Assembly (NCBI RefSeq): GCF_900343125.1
Contig: NZ_OPYL01000004.1
Coordinates: 62,001 to 126,000, forward strand
Direction: 5' to 3'
Source: Dysgonomonas sp. Marseille-P4361
GTDB taxonomy: Bacteria; Bacteroidota; Bacteroidia; Bacteroidales; Dysgonomonadaceae
DNA length: 64,000 nt
Shown: one piece after another, positions 17,694 through 33,999 of the stretch
How the letters are laid out: each line of letters opens with the position of its first letter
Numbering within the stretch: position 1 is the first letter of the stretch
Position numbers and translations under genes: made by a program
The notes under the pieces: generated by a model
Databases searched by the model: none
Told to the model about the DNA's origin: nothing
Seen by the model: only the letters and a program-made list of their open reading frames with translations

Positions 17694-18809
17694 TTAGTCT
17701 AGCAATTTAGCTAAAGTCTCACTGATCTTCTCTCCTCTAAGATTTTTCTCTAATATCTTACCGTCTTTGTCAAGAAGGATTGTATGAGGAATACCCGACA
17801 CACCGTAAAGTTTAGCCGCTTCGCTGTCCCAAGCTTTAAGGTCTGACATTTGAGGCCAAGTAATACCAAGGTCTTTGATACTTTGTTTCCAAGCGTCAGC
17901 TTCTCCATCCAAAGAAATAGCTACTATCTCGAAACCTTTATCTTTATATTGTGCATATGCTTTTTTCACGTTAGGCATTTCTTGAATACAAGGTCCGCAC
18001 CATGAAGCCCAGAAGTCGATCAATACATATTTTCCTTTACCTGCATAGTCTGACAATGCAATTTCTTTTCCTTCCGGAGTTAACGATTTCACATCAGTAA
18101 ACTGTTTACCTACAGCAGTTGCATTCATTCTTTCCAGACGTTCTGCCAGTTTAGTAAATCTCTCCATCGACTTGTATTCCGGTTTCAACTCAGCCATAAG
18201 ACCATTCAGTTGATCTAATTCAAGATTGTAAGAACTCATAGACAAAAAGAAAGCTCCTACTTGATTTCCCATATTTCCTTTAATGAAATCATACAATGCA
18301 GTATTCAATTCTTTTTGTCCAGCTTCTACTTTTGTTTCAAATTCTTTCTTCAACTCAGTATTAGCTGTATCAGCCATTACTTGTTCATACATTGCATTCA
18401 TTTCTTTGTAGAATGCCTGAGGCTTAGCCATGTATACTTGGTAAGCATTATTTATAGCAGTACCTTTTACAGTAGCCATTGTATCTAAAGAAATTTCGAT
18501 TGTACCCGGCTCAACAACAAGCAAAGTTGGTCTTTGCAAGAAGTCAGGAGCCTGATCTAAAGCAATAAAATGAATAGAAGGGCCTTGAAGAGCTAAGCCT
18601 TTGAAAATGAATTTACCATCACGCACTTCTGCTGTATCAATAGTTACAAGAGTTCTTGTATTCCATGTAGAGTCCATTGTTTGTAGAAAGACTAGCTGTC
18701 CGTCATACTGACCATTAGGCAGTGTTCCGTTTATCGTAAAAGCATCTTTCTGTCCACAAGAAGTGGCTAAGATTGCAATTACAGATAAGAATAATATAAG
18801 TTTCTTCAT
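17694..18809 (-). CDS. TlpA-family thiol-disulfide lipoprotein with DUF4369
   Basis: A 371-residue lipoprotein: signal peptide with lipobox ATSC (Cys18), an N-terminal DUF4369-type beta domain (about 22-115), a helical middle, and a C-terminal thioredoxin-like TlpA/ResA domain with the redox motif C271-GP-C274 in FWASWCGPC. Such proteins are membrane-anchored reductases in the periplasm, keeping cysteines reduced for cytochrome maturation or other uses. It is the downstream copy of a tandem pair of equal length (371 residues each), separated by 86 nt. Confidence 0.88.
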   Translation of the reverse strand: MKKLILFLSVIAILATSCGQKDAFTINGTLPNGQYDGQLVFLQTMDSTWNTRTLVTIDTAEVRDGKFIFKGLALQGPSIHFIALDQAPDFLQRPTLLVVEPGTIEISLDTMATVKGTAINNAYQVYMAKPQAFYKEMNAMYEQVMADTANTELKKEFETKVEAGQKELNTALYDFIKGNMGNQVGAFFLSMSSYNLELDQLNGLMAELKPEYKSMERFTKLAERLERMNATAVGKQFTDVKSLTPEGKEIALSDYAGKGKYVLIDFWASWCGPCIQEMPNVKKAYAQYKDKGFEIVAISLDGEADAWKQSIKDLGITWPQMSDLKAWDSEAAKLYGVSGIPHTILLDKDGKILEKNLRGEKISETLAKLLD

Positions 18810-18895: not shown

Positions 18896-20011
18896 TTATT
18901 TAAGTATCTCTGCTATTTTCTTCTCTAGTTCATCACCTCTCAGACCTGTAGCTAGTACAACTCCATTCTGATCGACAAGAAGTGTATAAGGGATAGAAGA
19001 AACTGCATATTTTTCAGATCCTTCTTGCTTGTCATCTGCTAATTGAATCCAATTCATGCCATGTTTTTTTACGGCATTCAACCATGCTGTTTTATCTTCA
19101 TCTACCGAAATACCTACAATTTCCAATCCTTTGCCTTTGTACTTCGCATATATGCTTTTCAAAGCCGGCATTTCTTGGATACATGGTGCGCACCATGAAG
19201 CCCAGAAATCGATCAGGACACATTTGTTCTTACCCACAAAAGTAGAAAGAGCCACACGTTGTCCTTCGGCATTCACTAAATCTACATCAGCATATGGTTG
19301 TCCTTCGGCTGGAATTACACGACTAAGATCTTCTATCAAAGCTTCTATTTCTGGCAATTTCTTAAACGTTTCGTCTGATGCTTCTACCAATTCTGCTAAT
19401 TCTTCGCGAGTAAACGATTGAGCAGAAGAGAAGAATGCAAATTGTCCGGCTTTGTTTGTCATATTTGCCTTAGCAAAGCCAAACACAGCTTTCTTCATGC
19501 TGTCTTGCAAGTTCATCAATCTTGTTTGTGCATCATTTCCTGCCGAATCAACAGGTACACCTTGTACACCACCTGCGTCTGATACTTCTTTATACAAAGC
19601 AGCAACATCGTTCATAATCAGCAATATTTTATTGTACTCATCATTTCCCTGAGTACCACCAATTGCAACATCTCCATTAGAGGCAAATGATATATTTATT
19701 GTTCCCGGTTCTAGGATTATCGTACCTACCGGTGAGTTTGGTTGTAGCATATCCAATCTCCCTACCGACAGAAAAGCCATAGATTTACCTTCTGTTACTG
19801 TTCCTTTGAACTCAAATTTATTATCTTTTATTACCACAGAGTCCATGATAGTAGGAGACTGTGCTGTCATGCTATCTATTTTTTGTAGATATACTGTTTT
19901 TCCGTTAAATGTGTCTTCTGTAAAAGAGCCTTTGATTGTATATCCATCTTTATTTTGGCACGAGGCTAAAACCAAGACGATAAGGCTTAGAAGAAATGTG
20001 ATTTTTTTCAT
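18896..20011 (-). CDS. TlpA-family thiol-disulfide lipoprotein (paralog)
   Basis: A 371-residue lipoprotein with lipobox LASC (Cys18), DUF4369-type domain (GYTIKGSFTEDTFNGKTVYL) and a TlpA domain with C274-AP-C277 in FWASWCAPC. The intermediate dipeptide is AP where its neighbour has GP, which may shift redox potential. Same architecture and length as the downstream gene, so a tandem duplication is likely. It is the upstream gene of the pair; a TATCTTTA that nearly fits the -7 consensus lies about 50 nt before it on the minus strand. Confidence 0.88.
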   Translation of the reverse strand: MKKITFLLSLIVLVLASCQNKDGYTIKGSFTEDTFNGKTVYLQKIDSMTAQSPTIMDSVVIKDNKFEFKGTVTEGKSMAFLSVGRLDMLQPNSPVGTIILEPGTINISFASNGDVAIGGTQGNDEYNKILLIMNDVAALYKEVSDAGGVQGVPVDSAGNDAQTRLMNLQDSMKKAVFGFAKANMTNKAGQFAFFSSAQSFTREELAELVEASDETFKKLPEIEALIEDLSRVIPAEGQPYADVDLVNAEGQRVALSTFVGKNKCVLIDFWASWCAPCIQEMPALKSIYAKYKGKGLEIVGISVDEDKTAWLNAVKKHGMNWIQLADDKQEGSEKYAVSSIPYTLLVDQNGVVLATGLRGDELEKKIAEILK

Positions 20012-26792: not shown

Positions 26793-27158
26793 ATGAAGAT
26801 TTTAGGGATTATACTCGGTGTCATAGGCTTGCTAATTCTTTTCTGTTGCATCGGATTCTATATCTATTGCAACTATGGAATTCTGGAAAAAGACATCCGA
26901 AAAGGGAGGTATCTGGATACAGCGATAGAAAAACCAACAGATGAATTTCTTCCCAAAATAGAAGAAGCATATCGGTTACAACCCTATTCAAAACTTCCTC
27001 CTAATCCTAAAATTCTGTATGAGACAGAAGATAAAATATACTGGGGGTATGTACAATATGAAATATTCAGAACACCTGTAAAAGATTTATATTTTACCTA
27101 TAAAGACGAGAATTGGACTCAATTTAAAATTGAACTAGAAAAAGATTCAATACAATGA
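26793..27158 (+). CDS. Small single-pass membrane protein inserted between trpE and trpG
   Basis: A 121-residue protein with one hydrophobic segment at residues 3-27 (ILGIILGVIGLLILFCCIGF) and a hydrophilic C-terminal domain of about 90 residues. Four nt separate it from trpE and its stop overlaps the trpG ATG by 4 nt, so its translation is coupled to both. I recognise no family. Splitting the trpE-trpG pair, whose products form one enzyme complex, is unusual. The base composition is more AT-rich than trpE, which may point to a later insertion. Confidence 0.65.
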   Translation: MKILGIILGVIGLLILFCCIGFYIYCNYGILEKDIRKGRYLDTAIEKPTDEFLPKIEEAYRLQPYSKLPPNPKILYETEDKIYWGYVQYEIFRTPVKDLYFTYKDENWTQFKIELEKDSIQ

Positions 27159-27743: not shown

Positions 27744-29102
27744 ATGAGCAAGAAGATCATTTTAAGCGAGAATGACATTCCTAGAAGCTGGTATAACATT
27801 GTAGCGGACATGAAAAACAAACCGCTACCTCCATTAAATCCAAAAACAAAAGAAGTTTTAAACCCATCTGACTTAGAACCAATCTTTGCCAAAGAGCTTA
27901 TCAAACAAGAATTGACCGAAGAGCGTTGGGTAGAAATTCCTGACGAGGTAAGAGATCTTTACAAAATATGGAGACCTACTCCACTGGTAAGAGCTACCGG
28001 ACTGGAAAAAGCATTGGACACTCCAGCTCATATCTATTTCAAAAATGAAGGAGTAAGCCCTATCGGCTCTCACAAGCTAAACTCTGCTCTGCCTCAAGCA
28101 TACTACAACAAGATGCAAGGGATCAAGCACCTAACGACTGAAACAGGAGCCGGACAATGGGGAGCAGCACTTAGCTTCGCATCCAGCATATTTGGTTTAG
28201 ACCTGCAAGTTTACATGGTAAAAGTAAGCTACAACCAAAAACCTTACCGCCGTATGATGATGCAGACATGGGGTGCAAACGTTATCCCTTCCCCAAGCGA
28301 CTTAACCGAAGCGGGTAGAGCAATCCTTGCCAAAAACCCTAACAATTCGGGGAGTTTAGGCATAGCGATTTCTGAAGCCGTTGAAGCTGCCCTAAAGGGA
28401 GAAGATACTCGCTACACTTTGGGTAGTGTATTGAATCACGTTATCTTGCACCAAACAATCATTGGTCTAGAAAGTGAGAAACAAATGGAAATCGCAGGCG
28501 AATACCCTGACATCGTTATCGGATGTTTTGGAGGAGGTTCCAACTTCTCGGGTATCAGCTTCCCATTCCTGCGTCATAAATTGACAGATGGTAAAGAAGT
28601 TCGCATTATTGCATCTGAACCTGCAAGCACCCCTAAACTATCGAGAGGTAAATTCGAATACGACTATGGTGACACTGCTGGATTGACTCCGCTATTGCCG
28701 ATGTACACATTAGGACACGACTTCCAACCGGCAGACATTCATGCAGGAGGACTACGTTACCATGGTGCTGGTACTATCGTTAGCCAATTGCACCGTGACG
28801 GATACATCGAAGTTCAGGATATCCCTCAACTAGAGACTTTCGAAGCCGGTAAATTATTTGCCAATACCGAAGGTATCATCCCTGCACCGGAATCTACTCA
28901 CGCTATTGCTTCTGCCATCCGCGAAGCGAAGAAAGCGAAAGAGGAAGGTGTACAAAAAACAATTCTCTTCAATCTTTCGGGCCACGGACTAATAGACATG
29001 ACTTCTTACGATCAATATCTGAGCGGAAACATGCAAAATTACAACCTGACTGATGAGGAAATTGCTAAAACAACAGATACGTTAGAGAAACTAGTAAAAT
29101 AA
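27744..29102 (+). CDS. trpB2: TrpB-like PLP enzyme (TrpB2 type)
   Basis: A 452-residue TrpB homolog of the longer TrpB2 class, with PLP lysine K111 in [13 protein letters not shown] and the conserved [24 protein letters not shown] and STHAIASAI segments. TrpB2 proteins typically lack the residues needed to bind TrpA and act as stand-alone indole-to-Trp synthases or serine-related enzymes. Here it shares an operon with trpB (24179-25366), giving two beta-chain-type genes under one attenuator. The codon use appears more optimised than that of its neighbours, suggesting high expression. The 22-nt gap after trpG supports cotranscription. Confidence 0.92.
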
Positions 29103-29104
29103 AA

Positions 29105-29168
29105 AGCTTTTAGCCAATAGCCGTTAGTACAGAAAAAGCTAACGGCTGGCAGCTAACAGCTAATGGCT
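29105..29168. repeat. Palindromic element between trpB2 and trpD
   Basis: AGCCGTTAG (29119-29127) pairs with CTAACGGCT (29139-29147) around an 11-nt loop; outer segments (AGCTTTTAGC at 29105-29114 and GCTAACAGCT at 29153-29162) can pair imperfectly outside it. AGCTAAC recurs at 29138 and 29152. The element reaches into the ATGGCT at 29163. It resembles the mobile REP-like palindromes found between genes in many bacteria, and there is no T run, so it is probably not a terminator. Confidence 0.6.
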
Positions 29169-29174
29169 ACCTAT

Positions 29175-30173
29175 ATGAAGCAAATTTTAAACAGACTATT
29201 CGAGCATCAATACCTCAACCGGACAGAAGCAAAAGAAATTCTGACAAACATGGCCGACGGAAAGTACAACGATTCTGAGATTGCCGCATTTATCAGTGTT
29301 TTCTTGATGCGTAGTATCAGCGTTGACGAATTTCTGGGATTCTCAGATGCTTTACTCGACCTCAGAACAAACGTAGATGCCTTGGCTGCTTACAATCCTA
29401 TTGACATTGTTGGTACGGGAGGCGATAATAAAAATACATTCAACATATCCACGCTTGCCTGCTTTGTTGTTGCAGCATCAGGATACAAGGTAGCTAAGCA
29501 TGGCAACTACGGAGCAACATCGGTGAGTGGTGCGTCGAATGTGATGGAGCAACACGGAGTAAAATTCACTTCAGATGTCAGCAAACTGGAAGAATCGCTT
29601 GATAAGACAAACATTGCTTACATGCATGCTCCGCTGTTCAACAATGCCTTGAAACGGGTTGCACCGGTACGAAAAGCTCTAGGCGTACGCACCTTTTTCA
29701 ATATGCTGGGACCGGTAGTTAATCCCATCAGACCAAAGCGAACTGTACTTGGTGTTTTCAATCTGAAACTGGCTCGCCTCTACTTCTACATGTATCAGCA
29801 GACAGATGTAGATTATTCCATTGTTCACAGCCTTGACGGGTACGACGAAATATCGTTGACCAACGACTTCAAGATTATCAACAAGTTTGAAGAAAGAATC
29901 TACAAACCCGAACAAGTTGGCTTCGAACGTTGTACAGAGCTAGATCTGGACGGAGGAACAACCCCTGAAGATGCTGCCAGAATATTTGACAATGTAATCA
30001 ACAATACAGCTACCTCTGCACAAAAGAATGCCGTAATAGCCAATGCTGCTACTGCAATTCAGACCATCAAACCTCTCCTATCTTTCGGCGATGCAATAGC
30101 TCAGGCACGAGAAACAATAGAAAGTGGACGTCTGAAAGAAACATTCAGTAAATTTCTGACATTAAATTCATAA
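29175..30173 (+). CDS. trpD: Anthranilate phosphoribosyltransferase
   Basis: A 332-residue enzyme transferring phosphoribosyl from PRPP to anthranilate. The signature GTGGDNKNTFNIST and the KHGNYGATS segment bind PRPP, and RTFFNMLGPVVNPIRPKR is typical of the family. I start at the ATG at 29175 (MKQILNRLFEHQYLNR), which matches relatives; the ATG at 29163 gives four more residues but lies inside the palindromic element. The C-terminal KETFSKFLTLNS is duplicated downstream at 31150-31188. Confidence 0.93.
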   Translation: MKQILNRLFEHQYLNRTEAKEILTNMADGKYNDSEIAAFISVFLMRSISVDEFLGFSDALLDLRTNVDALAAYNPIDIVGTGGDNKNTFNISTLACFVVAASGYKVAKHGNYGATSVSGASNVMEQHGVKFTSDVSKLEESLDKTNIAYMHAPLFNNALKRVAPVRKALGVRTFFNMLGPVVNPIRPKRTVLGVFNLKLARLYFYMYQQTDVDYSIVHSLDGYDEISLTNDFKIINKFEERIYKPEQVGFERCTELDLDGGTTPEDAARIFDNVINNTATSAQKNAVIANAATAIQTIKPLLSFGDAIAQARETIESGRLKETFSKFLTLNS

Positions 30174-30178
30174 TCAAC

Positions 30179-31120
30179 ATGGAGCGTTTAGACTCGGACA
30201 TACAGAAGAATAAGAACAATTCGACAGCACGATATACGAAACTGGCGATTGGCTTTATTGTGCTTTTTGTTCTCGCCTTTTTTGCGCTCTTCATTTCTAT
30301 ATTCAAACCCGAAATAAAAGAGAACTTCAAGTTAAGCTTGGAGAAAATTCCGGAAGATTTTCAGAATTATAAGTATTTAGAAGATTTTGAAGACAACAAA
30401 TATTTTGAAAGTGTTCCTACCAATTCTTTTTTCCAAAATAATGCTCCATACTATTTTTTGCCAGATAGTACGTTGATATTAAATAAAAGAAAAGCGAAGA
30501 AAAACTTCTTATTCAAAATAAATAAAGAAGGCTATATAACAGACAGCTGCAAATACGAAGATAATCTGCAATTTTATTATAAAACATTGATTAACTTCGA
30601 CGAAGAGCTTTATAGCAAATGGCCTCTGGATGGTAAAACGATAGAGTATGAGATAGAATCTATAGACAATAGTCCTGAAGATTATCTGCTTGATATATAC
30701 AAAAAAGCTGAAATTATTGTCCTTAAAGAACGTGTTTTTCTGTTTGCAGACGGTAAGTGGTATTCTTCCGACAAGCAATTTTGGGATGGGTTGAATGAAG
30801 ACTTTTTAAAAAGAGATTCCTTCAATTCTTACCGATACAGAGAGATAAATCATATTCCAGAGATGAAAGTCTGTTATACAAAACGAATAAAGTATAATCC
30901 TTCTCGGATAAGTGGTTATTTGCAGGGCGGTAGCGGAAAGCCTGCAAGCTGGGATTGTGACTTATATATCGACCTTAAGTTAGGAGATACAATTTTCCCT
31001 TTCAAGCATAAAATATATTGGGTTAAAGACTATAAAGATGCTGCTGCCGATAAATCTATCTCTTATATCCGAACAAGTAACTACTGCATAATAGAGAACT
31101 TCATAATCAGAATAAAATAA
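30179..31120 (+). CDS. Single-pass membrane protein in trp operon (paralog 1)
   Basis: A 313-residue protein with an N-terminal anchor (about 21-44) and a beta-rich outer part. Conserved with the next gene: PEDFQNYKYL / PEEYKSYPDL, YYFLPDSTLIL / YYILPDNTLIL, YSKWPLDG / YSNWPING and SGYLQGG / AGYLSGG, about 30 percent by eye. I recognise no family. It starts 5 nt after the trpD stop. Function unknown; in-operon position could reflect insertion rather than a role in tryptophan synthesis. Confidence 0.7.
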   Translation: MERLDSDIQKNKNNSTARYTKLAIGFIVLFVLAFFALFISIFKPEIKENFKLSLEKIPEDFQNYKYLEDFEDNKYFESVPTNSFFQNNAPYYFLPDSTLILNKRKAKKNFLFKINKEGYITDSCKYEDNLQFYYKTLINFDEELYSKWPLDGKTIEYEIESIDNSPEDYLLDIYKKAEIIVLKERVFLFADGKWYSSDKQFWDGLNEDFLKRDSFNSYRYREINHIPEMKVCYTKRIKYNPSRISGYLQGGSGKPASWDCDLYIDLKLGDTIFPFKHKIYWVKDYKDAAADKSISYIRTSNYCIIENFIIRIK

Positions 31121-31149
31121 AAAAGAGAATAGCTTCTAACAAATATTTA

Positions 31150-31188
31150 AAAGAAACATTTAGTAAATTTCTGACATTGAATTCATAA
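31150..31188 (+). repeat. 39-nt duplicated 3' end of trpD
   Basis: This stretch matches the last 39 nt of trpD (30135-30173) in 37 of 39 positions and, in the same frame, encodes the same last 12 residues and stop (KETFSKFLTLNS). Both differences are synonymous third-position changes (TTC/TTT and TTA/TTG). The similarity stops abruptly at both ends. It sits 12 nt upstream of the second paralog, as trpD sits just before the first. Confidence 0.92.
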
Positions 31189-31199
31189 AGTTAAGCATT

Positions 31200-32249
31200 A
31201 TGCAAAACAACACTTCATCTGTAAACCCAAATCCTAAAGCCGGATGTTTGAAGAAATTTCTGATTATATTCGGTGTTACAGCTGTACTCTTTATTGCAGC
31301 AGTCGCATATATTTTCGATCAGGTAAGTGGAAATGCTGAAAAAAGATTTGAAGAAAAAGAGAATGCTAGGCTTGCAAAAGAAATACTACCCGAAGAATAT
31401 AAATCATATCCCGACCTATACGAATTAAGTAGCACTGATGATTACGAAGTAATTCCTTTGGTCGCAGATTTTTCTTTATACTACATTTTGCCAGACAATA
31501 CGCTTATCCTTGCCGAAAAATTTGGCGCCAATTTCTTAAGGATTAATACTGATGGAGAAATCATCGGGCATTATTATAATCCCGATCTCAAATTTTATGG
31601 CACATCACTGATGCAGTACACTGTTTTCACTCCTCCCCTGATAACATCAGATGATACGACCGAAGAACAGGATATAAAAATTGAGACTGTCCCTGAACCT
31701 ATAATCAGTGGAGTGTACAGCAACTGGCCCATCAATGGAGATACAACTCTATTTCAGATACAACCAATAGAAAAAATAGCATCTACAAAAAATCAGAAGA
31801 TTGCCGCATACGACAAAGCTGATGTAGTAACATATGAATATATAGGCGGAGATAAGGTGAATGAATTTGCCTTCTTACACATAGGAGATACTTGGTATAT
31901 GTCCGACTACAGATATAAAGAACAACCTGTAAAGCACTTGTATAAGGAAAGAGAATCCCTGAACAGATTCTTAAATAATTATAGCAACATAACTATCAAG
32001 TATAAAAAACGAAACAGATACAACCGTGCACGGTCTGCTGGTTATTTGAGTGGGGGTATGTTGAATTATTCCGAATGGGAAGGCGATCTATACCTTGATA
32101 TGAAAGTAGGGAAAACCAGTGTGCTTTTCAAAGAACGCTTCAAAGAAAACAAAAATTCTTATGGGCTTATTCAGGTATATTTTGATGTCATCAATATGGG
32201 AAACTACGTTATAATTAATAACCACTTGATAAGACAAAGAAAGGAATGA
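31200..32249 (+). CDS. Single-pass membrane protein in trp operon (paralog 2)
   Basis: A 349-residue paralog of the 30179-31120 protein, with a membrane segment at about 19-42 and shared blocks PEEYKSYPDL, YYILPDNTLIL, YSNWPINGD, ADVVTYEYIG, RYNRARSAGYLSGG and EWEGDLYLDMKVG. It is longer by an insert around residues 145-175. It overlaps the NQO-like gene by 4 nt (ATGA). No family recognised. A trpD-tail remnant precedes it, so a duplication or recombination brought it here. Confidence 0.7.
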   Translation: MQNNTSSVNPNPKAGCLKKFLIIFGVTAVLFIAAVAYIFDQVSGNAEKRFEEKENARLAKEILPEEYKSYPDLYELSSTDDYEVIPLVADFSLYYILPDNTLILAEKFGANFLRINTDGEIIGHYYNPDLKFYGTSLMQYTVFTPPLITSDDTTEEQDIKIETVPEPIISGVYSNWPINGDTTLFQIQPIEKIASTKNQKIAAYDKADVVTYEYIGGDKVNEFAFLHIGDTWYMSDYRYKEQPVKHLYKERESLNRFLNNYSNITIKYKKRNRYNRARSAGYLSGGMLNYSEWEGDLYLDMKVGKTSVLFKERFKENKNSYGLIQVYFDVINMGNYVIINNHLIRQRKE

Positions 32250-32824
32250 AAAAGGTACTCATCATCAATGGACACCCCGACAAAGAAAGCTTTTGTTTTG
32301 GCTTACACCAAAGCTATAAGAAAGGTTCGCTGGAAGCAGGAAATGAGATAAAAGAAATTATTCTGCCCGATATGGAGTTCAATCCTATTCTACAACATGG
32401 CTACCGAAAACGAACAGAACTGGAACCTGATTTGTTAGATGCTTGGCAAAAATTGCAATGGGCCGAACATATAGTCTGGATATACCCTACATGGTGGGCT
32501 GCTCCTCCAGCCTTGATGAAAGGTTTTATCGAGCGTTTATTCCTACCGGGATTTACTTTCGAATATCAGGAGACATCTCCTTTCCCTAAAAAACTATTGA
32601 AAGGAAAAACATCCGAAATCATCAGCACTATGGATTCGCCCGTATGGTATTACAAATGGATAGTGAAAGATGTAGGCGGAAAAATGATCCGTAAAAATAT
32701 TGGAGCATTCTGTGGAATAAAAAATATACGAACGACCTATCTCGCTGTCATAAAACAATCGACACCCGAAAAGAGAAAACAATGGTTAGATAAAGTAGAA
32801 GATATCGCTAAAAAAACAAAATGA
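32246..32824 (+). CDS. NAD(P)H oxidoreductase, flavodoxin-like fold (NQO1/KefF family)
   Basis: A 192-residue flavoprotein of the NQO1/KefF/MdaB fold: the N-terminal FMN/FAD phosphate loop region VLIINGHPDKESFCFGLHQS and the signature WIYPTWWAAPPALMKGFIER-type motif are clear. Such enzymes reduce quinones or electrophiles with NAD(P)H. Overlaps of 4 nt with the upstream paralog and with the downstream MFS gene show translational coupling. Its role inside a trp operon is unknown. Confidence 0.88.
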   Translation: MKKVLIINGHPDKESFCFGLHQSYKKGSLEAGNEIKEIILPDMEFNPILQHGYRKRTELEPDLLDAWQKLQWAEHIVWIYPTWWAAPPALMKGFIERLFLPGFTFEYQETSPFPKKLLKGKTSEIISTMDSPVWYYKWIVKDVGGKMIRKNIGAFCGIKNIRTTYLAVIKQSTPEKRKQWLDKVEDIAKKTK

Positions 32825-33999
32825 ATTTGAATACAAACAGTGTATCGAGAGAACGTATCAGACTGGCTATTTTCAGTCTTTACTGTTGCACAGGAATATG
32901 TTTTTCCAGCTGGGCAAGCCGTATCCCGGATATAAAGACTTCGCTAGGGCTGGGTGATGCTGCATGGGGAACAATCCTTTTGATGATTCCCATAGGGCAG
33001 ATATGCGGTATGACGATCTCGGGACTGGTAATATCCAAGATAGGAAGTAATAGAATCTTCCCTGTTGCACTTGTTGCCTATGTGCTGGCTCTTCTATTAG
33101 TCGGCGTTTCGGCAAGCGAATATGCTTTGATAATGAGTCTTATTGTGTTCGGATTCTTTAGCAACTTTTGCAATATTTCCATCAATACGCAATCGGTAAC
33201 GGTAGAAAACATGTACGACAAACCTATCATGGCATCGTTTCACGGAGGGTGGAGCCTTGCCGGATTAATAGGGGCAGCTATAGGTCTACTGATGTCAACA
33301 CTACATATTAATCCGCTTCTGCATTTCAGTGTTGTGGGAGTATTAGTGCTGATCACCCTTATTATAAACAAGCCTTACCTGCAACCCGACCCTAAAAAAG
33401 TAAAGGATCCTGCCGATATTGCCTCCAAAAAGAGAAACAAACCCGAAACATTCTTGTTTCTGCTGGGTATCGTAGCCTTTTGTGGAATGGCAGCCGAGGG
33501 AGCAATGGCAGACTGGAGCGGATTGTATTTGATAGATGTTGTAGGAGCAGCCAACAATATCGCACCTTTAGGCTTAGCCGCTTACATGGTGACAATGGCT
33601 TCGGGACGATTCCTGATAGACAAGGCAACTCAGAAATGGGGACGTCAACGCGTATTACAAGCAGGAGGTACGCTTATCACAGTGGGACTATTCATGGCAG
33701 TGGCCTTACCTTATCTTATTACTACAATCATCGCCTTTATGATCATAGGATTTGGTACGGCAGGCATTGTTCCTACCATATATAGTGTTGCCGGACAACG
33801 CACTAAGATTCCAATCAGTATTGCTTTGACTATCGTATCGAGTGTCAGTTTCCTTGGGTTCTTATTAGGACCTCCTATTATTGGTTATATTTCCAGTGTT
33901 ACAAACCTCAGATATTCGTATGCACTGATTGGCTTGTTTGGAATCTGTATCGTTGCACTTGCGTCCATTATTAAAATATTCAGAATAGATAAAAGATAA
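32821..33999 (+). CDS. MFS transporter (YbjJ-like)
   Basis: A 392-residue transporter with about 12 membrane segments. The family pattern is visible in SSWASRIPDIKTSLGLGDAA and SFHGGWSLAGLIGAAIGLL. This resembles YbjJ-type MFS permeases of unknown substrate. It overlaps the oxidoreductase gene by 4 nt, and trpC starts 6 nt later. Export of an aromatic or indole compound would suit the position, but nothing in the sequence proves it. Confidence 0.85.
   Translation: MNLNTNSVSRERIRLAIFSLYCCTGICFSSWASRIPDIKTSLGLGDAAWGTILLMIPIGQICGMTISGLVISKIGSNRIFPVALVAYVLALLLVGVSASEYALIMSLIVFGFFSNFCNISINTQSVTVENMYDKPIMASFHGGWSLAGLIGAAIGLLMSTLHINPLLHFSVVGVLVLITLIINKPYLQPDPKKVKDPADIASKKRNKPETFLFLLGIVAFCGMAAEGAMADWSGLYLIDVVGAANNIAPLGLAAYMVTMASGRFLIDKATQKWGRQRVLQAGGTLITVGLFMAVALPYLITTIIAFMIIGFGTAGIVPTIYSVAGQRTKIPISIALTIVSSVSFLGFLLGPPIIGYISSVTNLRYSYALIGLFGICIVALASIIKIFRIDKR

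Follow-up and report, generated by a model that had tools for sequence, protein, structure and literature searches.

In the tryptophan operon of Dysgonomonas sp. Marseille-P4361, the last 39 bases of trpD recur further downstream, between the two paralogous genes (p1 and p2) that follow trpD. This second tail is probably (about 0.6) the scar of an additive, trpD-anchored event of homology-facilitated illegitimate recombination (HFIR) between two related alleles, one with p1 and the other with p2 directly behind trpD. The operon lies in a 64,000-nt stretch of contig NZ_OPYL01000004.1 (positions 62,001 to 126,000; assembly GCF_900343125.1), referred to here as the window, and its gene order is trpB-trpE-x121-trpG-trpB2-trpD-p1-(tail copy)-p2-nqo-mfs-trpC-trpF-trpA, with the trp genes named from a reading of their translations and from agreement among relatives. 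The features discussed are collected in Table 1. The list of open reading frames places the start of trpD at 29163, but most relatives align only from residue 3-5, and the true start is therefore probably 29175. The G+C content of trpD is 43%, against the lower values given for p1 and p2 in the table.

Table 1. Features of the trp operon in the window (position 1 is the first base of the window).
Feature	Position	Strand	Remarks
x121, orphan gene between trpE and trpG	26793..27158	+	N-terminal hydrophobic segment; shorter than both relatives
trpD, anthranilate phosphoribosyltransferase	29175..30173	+	74-92% identical to trpD of genus members with full-length match
trpD 3′ end, first repeat copy (TTC/TTA)	30135..30173	+	sequence match
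Paralog 1 (p1), 313 aa	30179..31120	+	one strong N-terminal hydrophobic segment; G+C 33%
29-nt spacer, presumed non-homologous junction at right end	31121..31149	+	origin not traced
39-nt trpD-tail copy (TTT/TTG), outside both genes	31150..31188	+	sequence match
Paralog 2 (p2), 349 aa	31200..32249	+	one strong N-terminal hydrophobic segment; G+C 36%
nqo, flavodoxin-fold reductase-like gene	32246..32824	+	in trpD-trpC interval of many genus members
mfs, MFS-type transporter (our label)	32821..33999	+	similarity and reading; before trpC in most genus loci

The 39-nt repeat and its edges

The two copies agree at 37 of 39 positions, and both mismatches (TTC/TTT and TTA/TTG) are synonymous, so that each copy encodes KETFSKFLTLNS followed by a stop codon. 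The repeat, which an earlier note on this DNA had described in the same terms, is real and far beyond chance. An ungapped search with the tail over the 4 kb downstream scored 37/39 at best, compared with no more than 25/39 in 200 Markov resamples, and the 3,301,187-base genome holds two sites only that match the tail with three or fewer mismatches. A scan of the contig for direct repeats (at least 28 nt long, at least 88% alike and at most 5 kb apart), which covered 356,540 of 358,540 bases and omitted the 2,000 bases adjoining the window, returned five such repeats, and the trpD-tail repeat alone covers the 3′ end of a gene.

Another close repeat in the window joins positions 17974-18022 and 19167-19215, which agree at 45 of 49 bases and surround what is presumably a thioredoxin-type motif. 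Because it sits inside two neighboring minus-strand ORFs of equal length, these are taken as a putative paralog pair.

The right edge of the displaced copy coincides to the base with the trpD stop codon, and homology ends there abruptly, with agreement at 4 of the 20 bases downstream. The stop codon is the point where alleles with different cargo would cease to be homologous. From the stop of the copy to the start of p2 the distance is 11 nt, while 5 nt separate the trpD stop from p1 and 9 nt separate trpD from the p-family gene of a second genus member, G017. By eye, the reading frame of the copy has no ATG from p1 to its stop and an in-frame TTG near its end. The longest exact run shared by the two tails is only 17 nt (by eye); precise loss of p1 through the two tails, which could in principle leave trpD intact, should therefore be inefficient.

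At the left edge of the copy, the 29-nt spacer was compared with the 120 nt that precede the trpD tail, and the score obtained was reached by 320 of 500 shuffles. The junction thus lacks extended homology, as an HFIR product requires. The best matches to the spacer itself are five at 22/29, a level judged to be that of chance; one is in the same contig (L132) and four are in other loci, and those in L022 and L056 probably represent one and the same place, having the same letters. A comparison of the spacer with 21 nt around the mfs-trpC gap was equaled by 12 of 300 shuffles, but it was one of eight comparisons, some with three extra bases, and is not relied on.

trpD loci in related genomes

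A trpD gene was found in 46 of the 61 genomes searched, and the best 80 of 251 trpD loci were compared. A second tail within 1.5 kb downstream is seen in none of 29 other trpD loci (best 24/39), and the displaced copy is closest to the trpD of its own genome, at 37/39 against at most 30/39 for the tails of those 29 loci. Both results support the recombination origin proposed in the earlier note. The last 39 bases of the resident trpD differ at 7 or more positions in each of the 29 loci, and trpD codons for the same residue are identical in only 38-52% of cases between this locus and 19 others. Given this interspecies codon identity and the distance of the other tails, the donor of the trpD sequence would have been a member of the same or a sister species. 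At the two codons that vary, TTT and TTG occur together in the working trpD of three other species (L006, L007, and L016), in which the rest of the tail leaves 26 to 30 of 39 positions in agreement with the copy; the variant in the copy is therefore plausible as a working tail. A sliding comparison gave no clear signal of an imported stretch at the trpD 3′ end, saturation making it blind to exchange within a species.

The place directly behind trpD is variable in the genus, since eight kinds of first gene are found there. In the 21 other members of the genus for which trpD is complete and the sequence beyond it is present, this place is taken by chorismate mutase in eight, nqo in five, a cupin in two, and mfs in two, and one genome each has trpC, a Sel1-repeat protein, a protein that we label NWTT-type, or a p-family gene. 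These counts are our own, consider ORFs of at least 40 aa, and omit two genomes with no trpD match (G009 and G021) and one with a trpD fragment only (G008). Pfam confirmed one chorismate mutase, one cupin, and the Sel1 protein, the other genes in this slot being named by similarity or reading. Outside the genus (L062-L121 minus L071, which is a genus member), trpC is seen in 55 of 59 loci, and its start lies within 120 nt of trpD in 52 of these 55 (the exceptions being L064, L065, and L107).

Several other observations concern the makeup of the operon. The trpD-trpC interval in L005-L023, L026, and L027 holds chorismate mutase, cupin, Sel1 protein, reductase, transporter, and other genes, and a search of the Marseille-P4361 genome for chorismate mutase of the type that stands behind trpD in relatives, made without a positive control, gave no match. 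The trpB2 gene (27744-29102) has two types among relatives, 85-96% identical to this one in six loci (L044, L053, and L055-L058) and about 74-77% in nine. The types do not follow the relationships of trpD, a hint of exchange or replacement. Gaps of the trp operon contain short GCTAACGGCTAA-type repeats in the window (at 29152), L042, L047, and L071, and at one site in L138; in L047 they are arranged in tandem, and those in the window are in part palindromic.

The p1 and p2 genes

The products of p1 and p2 are 30.1% identical over 299 aligned residues, the genes are 48.7% identical over 897 aligned codon bases, and tblastn finds their relationship at an E value of about 1e-27. For neither did Pfam, NCBIfam, or PHROG yield a family that passed its cut-off or scored better than E 0.008, and the comparison with solved structures gave matches far below cut-off only. 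The predicted structure of p2 is poor (mean pLDDT 59) and suggests that a membrane helix comes first and a region rich in strands after it; a Foldseek search with this model returned nothing at E 0.001 or better. Both may be extracytoplasmic proteins that are anchored in the membrane and produced along with the trp operon. A toxin domain or known immunity family was found in neither by Pfam, NCBIfam, and PHROG, and the gene upstream is trpD.

The family is very rare. It was found in 2 of 25 genus genomes (2 of the 18 that are at least 90% complete), and in the order sample (393 genomes) and the phylum sample (395) it came up in the Marseille-P4361 genome only. Seven of the 25 genus genomes are less than 90% complete or more than 5% contaminated, and absence from these is weak. 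The samples can also miss carriers, since G017 did not come up in the order sample. Searches for p relatives in viral contigs with a profile, for p2 relatives in plasmids, and for degenerate tails in viral contigs found none. Weak matches to p1 in G029 (E 6.9e-4) and G050 (E 1.7e-4) from a single-sequence search were set aside, a three-row profile (limit 1e-5) having failed to confirm them.

In G017, the one other carrier among the 25 genus genomes, a single p gene stands directly behind trpD and is followed by mfs. This gene shares 40.0% identity with p2 and 29.4% with p1. A state with a single cargo gene thus exists among relatives, and the remaining 20 of the 21 other genus genomes have no member of the family at this place. 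The arrangement in G017 supports the view, already put forward in the earlier note, that p2 once stood directly behind a trpD. A carrier of a single p1-like gene was not found among the 25 genus genomes, G017 providing one p2-like case.

Origin of the displaced tail

The observations to be explained are the repeat, its sharp edges, the lack of such a repeat in the other loci examined, two paralogs that have diverged deeply, and the single-gene state of G017. Under recombination of the HFIR kind, two related strains would have carried different cargo behind trpD, p1 in one and p2 in the other, and a DNA fragment from one strain would have entered the other. One end of the fragment would have been joined by homologous recombination, either in trpD or in the downstream genes, and at the other end a junction without homology would have formed, linking the point 29 nt past p1 to the last 39 nt of the second trpD. 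The product would be a whole trpD, p1, the displaced trpD tail, and p2, so that a gene is added instead of the usual exchange, and the 39-nt copy would be the remnant of the trpD that once directly preceded p2. We infer the donor and recipient strains, the direction of transfer, and the half-homologous mechanism from a comparison of one genome per species, in which the two putative alleles are seen only as joined in this genome.

The tails are 95% alike, compared with 48.7% for the codons of the paralogs, and the genes therefore parted long before they met; the scar is recent relative to the age of the paralogs. The family is so rare that independent insertion of two adjacent members is very unlikely, whereas exchange at one place explains both. 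The shared sequence that an HFIR product requires would be supplied by trpD, as judged from the 37/39 match in the one genome of the species compared. Several points count against this reading, among them the lack of a clear imported stretch in trpD, the untraced spacer, the closer similarity of the G017 gene to p2, and the lack of a single carrier with a p1-like gene.

The earlier note had offered a second route, the duplication of a unit made up of the trpD end and a paralog. Such a tandem duplication in place with free divergence afterwards is rejected, given a similarity of 95% between the tails and of 30% (residues) and 48.7% (bases) between the paralogs. The note had also argued that changes confined to synonymous sites point to divergence within a functional trpD. 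The probability that two random changes in these 39 bases are both silent is 0.04 to 0.12, depending on transition bias, and 0.17 if only transitions are allowed. The silent changes therefore lean toward that argument, but they are weak evidence and do not decide the matter.

An unlikely alternative is insertion with long target duplication (Nobusato et al. 2000, as cited in PMC1643837 and PMC3154945), in which a gene comes to lie between direct copies of its target. Here a stray or mobile p1 would have entered a trpD-p2 strain and duplicated 39 bp of the target. The resulting layout of target copy, new gene, and target copy is like that of restriction-modification genes in Helicobacter pylori, as far as the available parts of these papers describe it (PMC1643837; PMC3154945), and p1 likewise has a direct copy of the trpD tail on either side. 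However, p1 and its neighbor p2 are paralogs, with no restriction-modification gene indicated, and on this route p1 would have landed by chance right in front of another member of the same very rare family. Fresh copies should also be identical, while those on either side of p1 differ at 2 of 39 positions in the one genome of the species, a difference that needs time. The 976-nt segment lacks inverted repeats at its ends by eye, and p1, its sole evident gene, matches no recombinase family in Pfam, NCBIfam, or PHROG. Transposition was rejected on the same grounds, and site-specific integration has no support either, neither a recombinase gene nor terminal inverted repeats having been found in the segment.

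We also consider improbable an old in-place tandem duplication of the trpD tail together with a gene, after which gene conversion with trpD as the source, or selection for a role as p2 leader, would have kept the tail alike. This history accounts for the paralogs being neighbors, and the tail copy does keep its reading, with silent changes only. Yet it needs repeated short conversion tracts or near base-by-base constraint, whereas in every one of the 29 other loci the tail departs from the resident trpD at no fewer than 7 positions, and no second tail lies within 1.5 kb in G017.

Dispersed short duplications do occur, and a recent template switch could have placed 39 bases of trpD in the gap of an old p1-p2 pair. 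This is very unlikely, since chance alone would have to account both for the end of the copied stretch precisely at the stop codon and for its landing 11 nt before p2, which matches the usual spacing of trpD and cargo. An assembly error that joined two strains of a mixed culture is highly improbable even for a genome in 13 contigs, given the completeness of 99.76%, the contamination of 0.98%, the lack of shared sequence at the left edge of the copy, and the tendency of assemblers to collapse repeats.

Comparison with known systems

In HFIR, incoming DNA is joined at one end by homology and at the other without it, and its frequency in E. coli is very low (PMC3240628). It has been proposed for variable segments of bacterial genomes (PMC2884548). 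In the portions of these reports available to us, genes are added beside a conserved anchor (PMC3240628; PMC2884548), as we infer here from one genome. The orphan immunity arrays of type VI secretion in Vibrio cholerae arise when a new module enters at an anchor and displaces the older immunity gene downstream, and in one step described in the accessible text the 3′ end of the old effector is displaced along with it (PMC5361080). The mechanism proposed there is akin to HFIR and is likewise termed rare (PMC5361080). The layout in the trp operon, with its displaced 3′ end, is similar to these arrays and to displaced Rhs ends as far as they are described there, but its anchor is the housekeeping gene trpD, whose protein is unchanged, and nothing found for p1 and p2 points to a toxin or immunity role. 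A literature search that included the Dysgonomonas tryptophan operon, was judged by titles and opening lines, and had most subscription journals outside its coverage brought up no account of the scar, and the literature on partial duplication gave no match. This kind of scar is already known; its place in an ordinary biosynthesis operon and the linked orphan genes are the points of interest.

x121 and wider implications

Relatives of x121 are present in 3 of the 25 genus genomes, this one included: in G017 the relative lies between trpE and trpG, and in G019 it lies at another locus. The two relatives are located at 4085-4708 in L144 and 4674-5234 in L145. One of them is 186 aa and the other 207 aa long, compared with 121 aa for x121, which looks shortened relative to them, and they are 28-31% identical to it. 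The two genomes with a p-family gene behind trpD are also the two with x121 between trpE and trpG, among the 25 genus genomes. At 28-31% identity for x121 and 40% for the p genes, the sharing with G017 looks old; it may reflect either common descent with many losses or the joint transfer of a segment of the operon.

Additive recombination has been described at toxin-immunity, effector, and restriction genes, in the parts of the reports available (PMC5361080; PMC1643837; PMC3154945). The Dysgonomonas trp operon may, though this wider idea is doubtful, carry exchangeable envelope genes, with x121 and the p genes swapped and stacked between strains through trp homology anchors in the manner of toxin-immunity modules, and the 39-nt tail would then mark one stacking step. 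The scar gives a readable breakpoint and, being located in an operon of core biosynthesis, would show that accessory genes can be stacked with ordinary conserved genes as their anchors. Two orphan families at matching places in the operons of two distant species also offer a testable lead to a membrane function connected with the synthesis of tryptophan or with the control of that synthesis.
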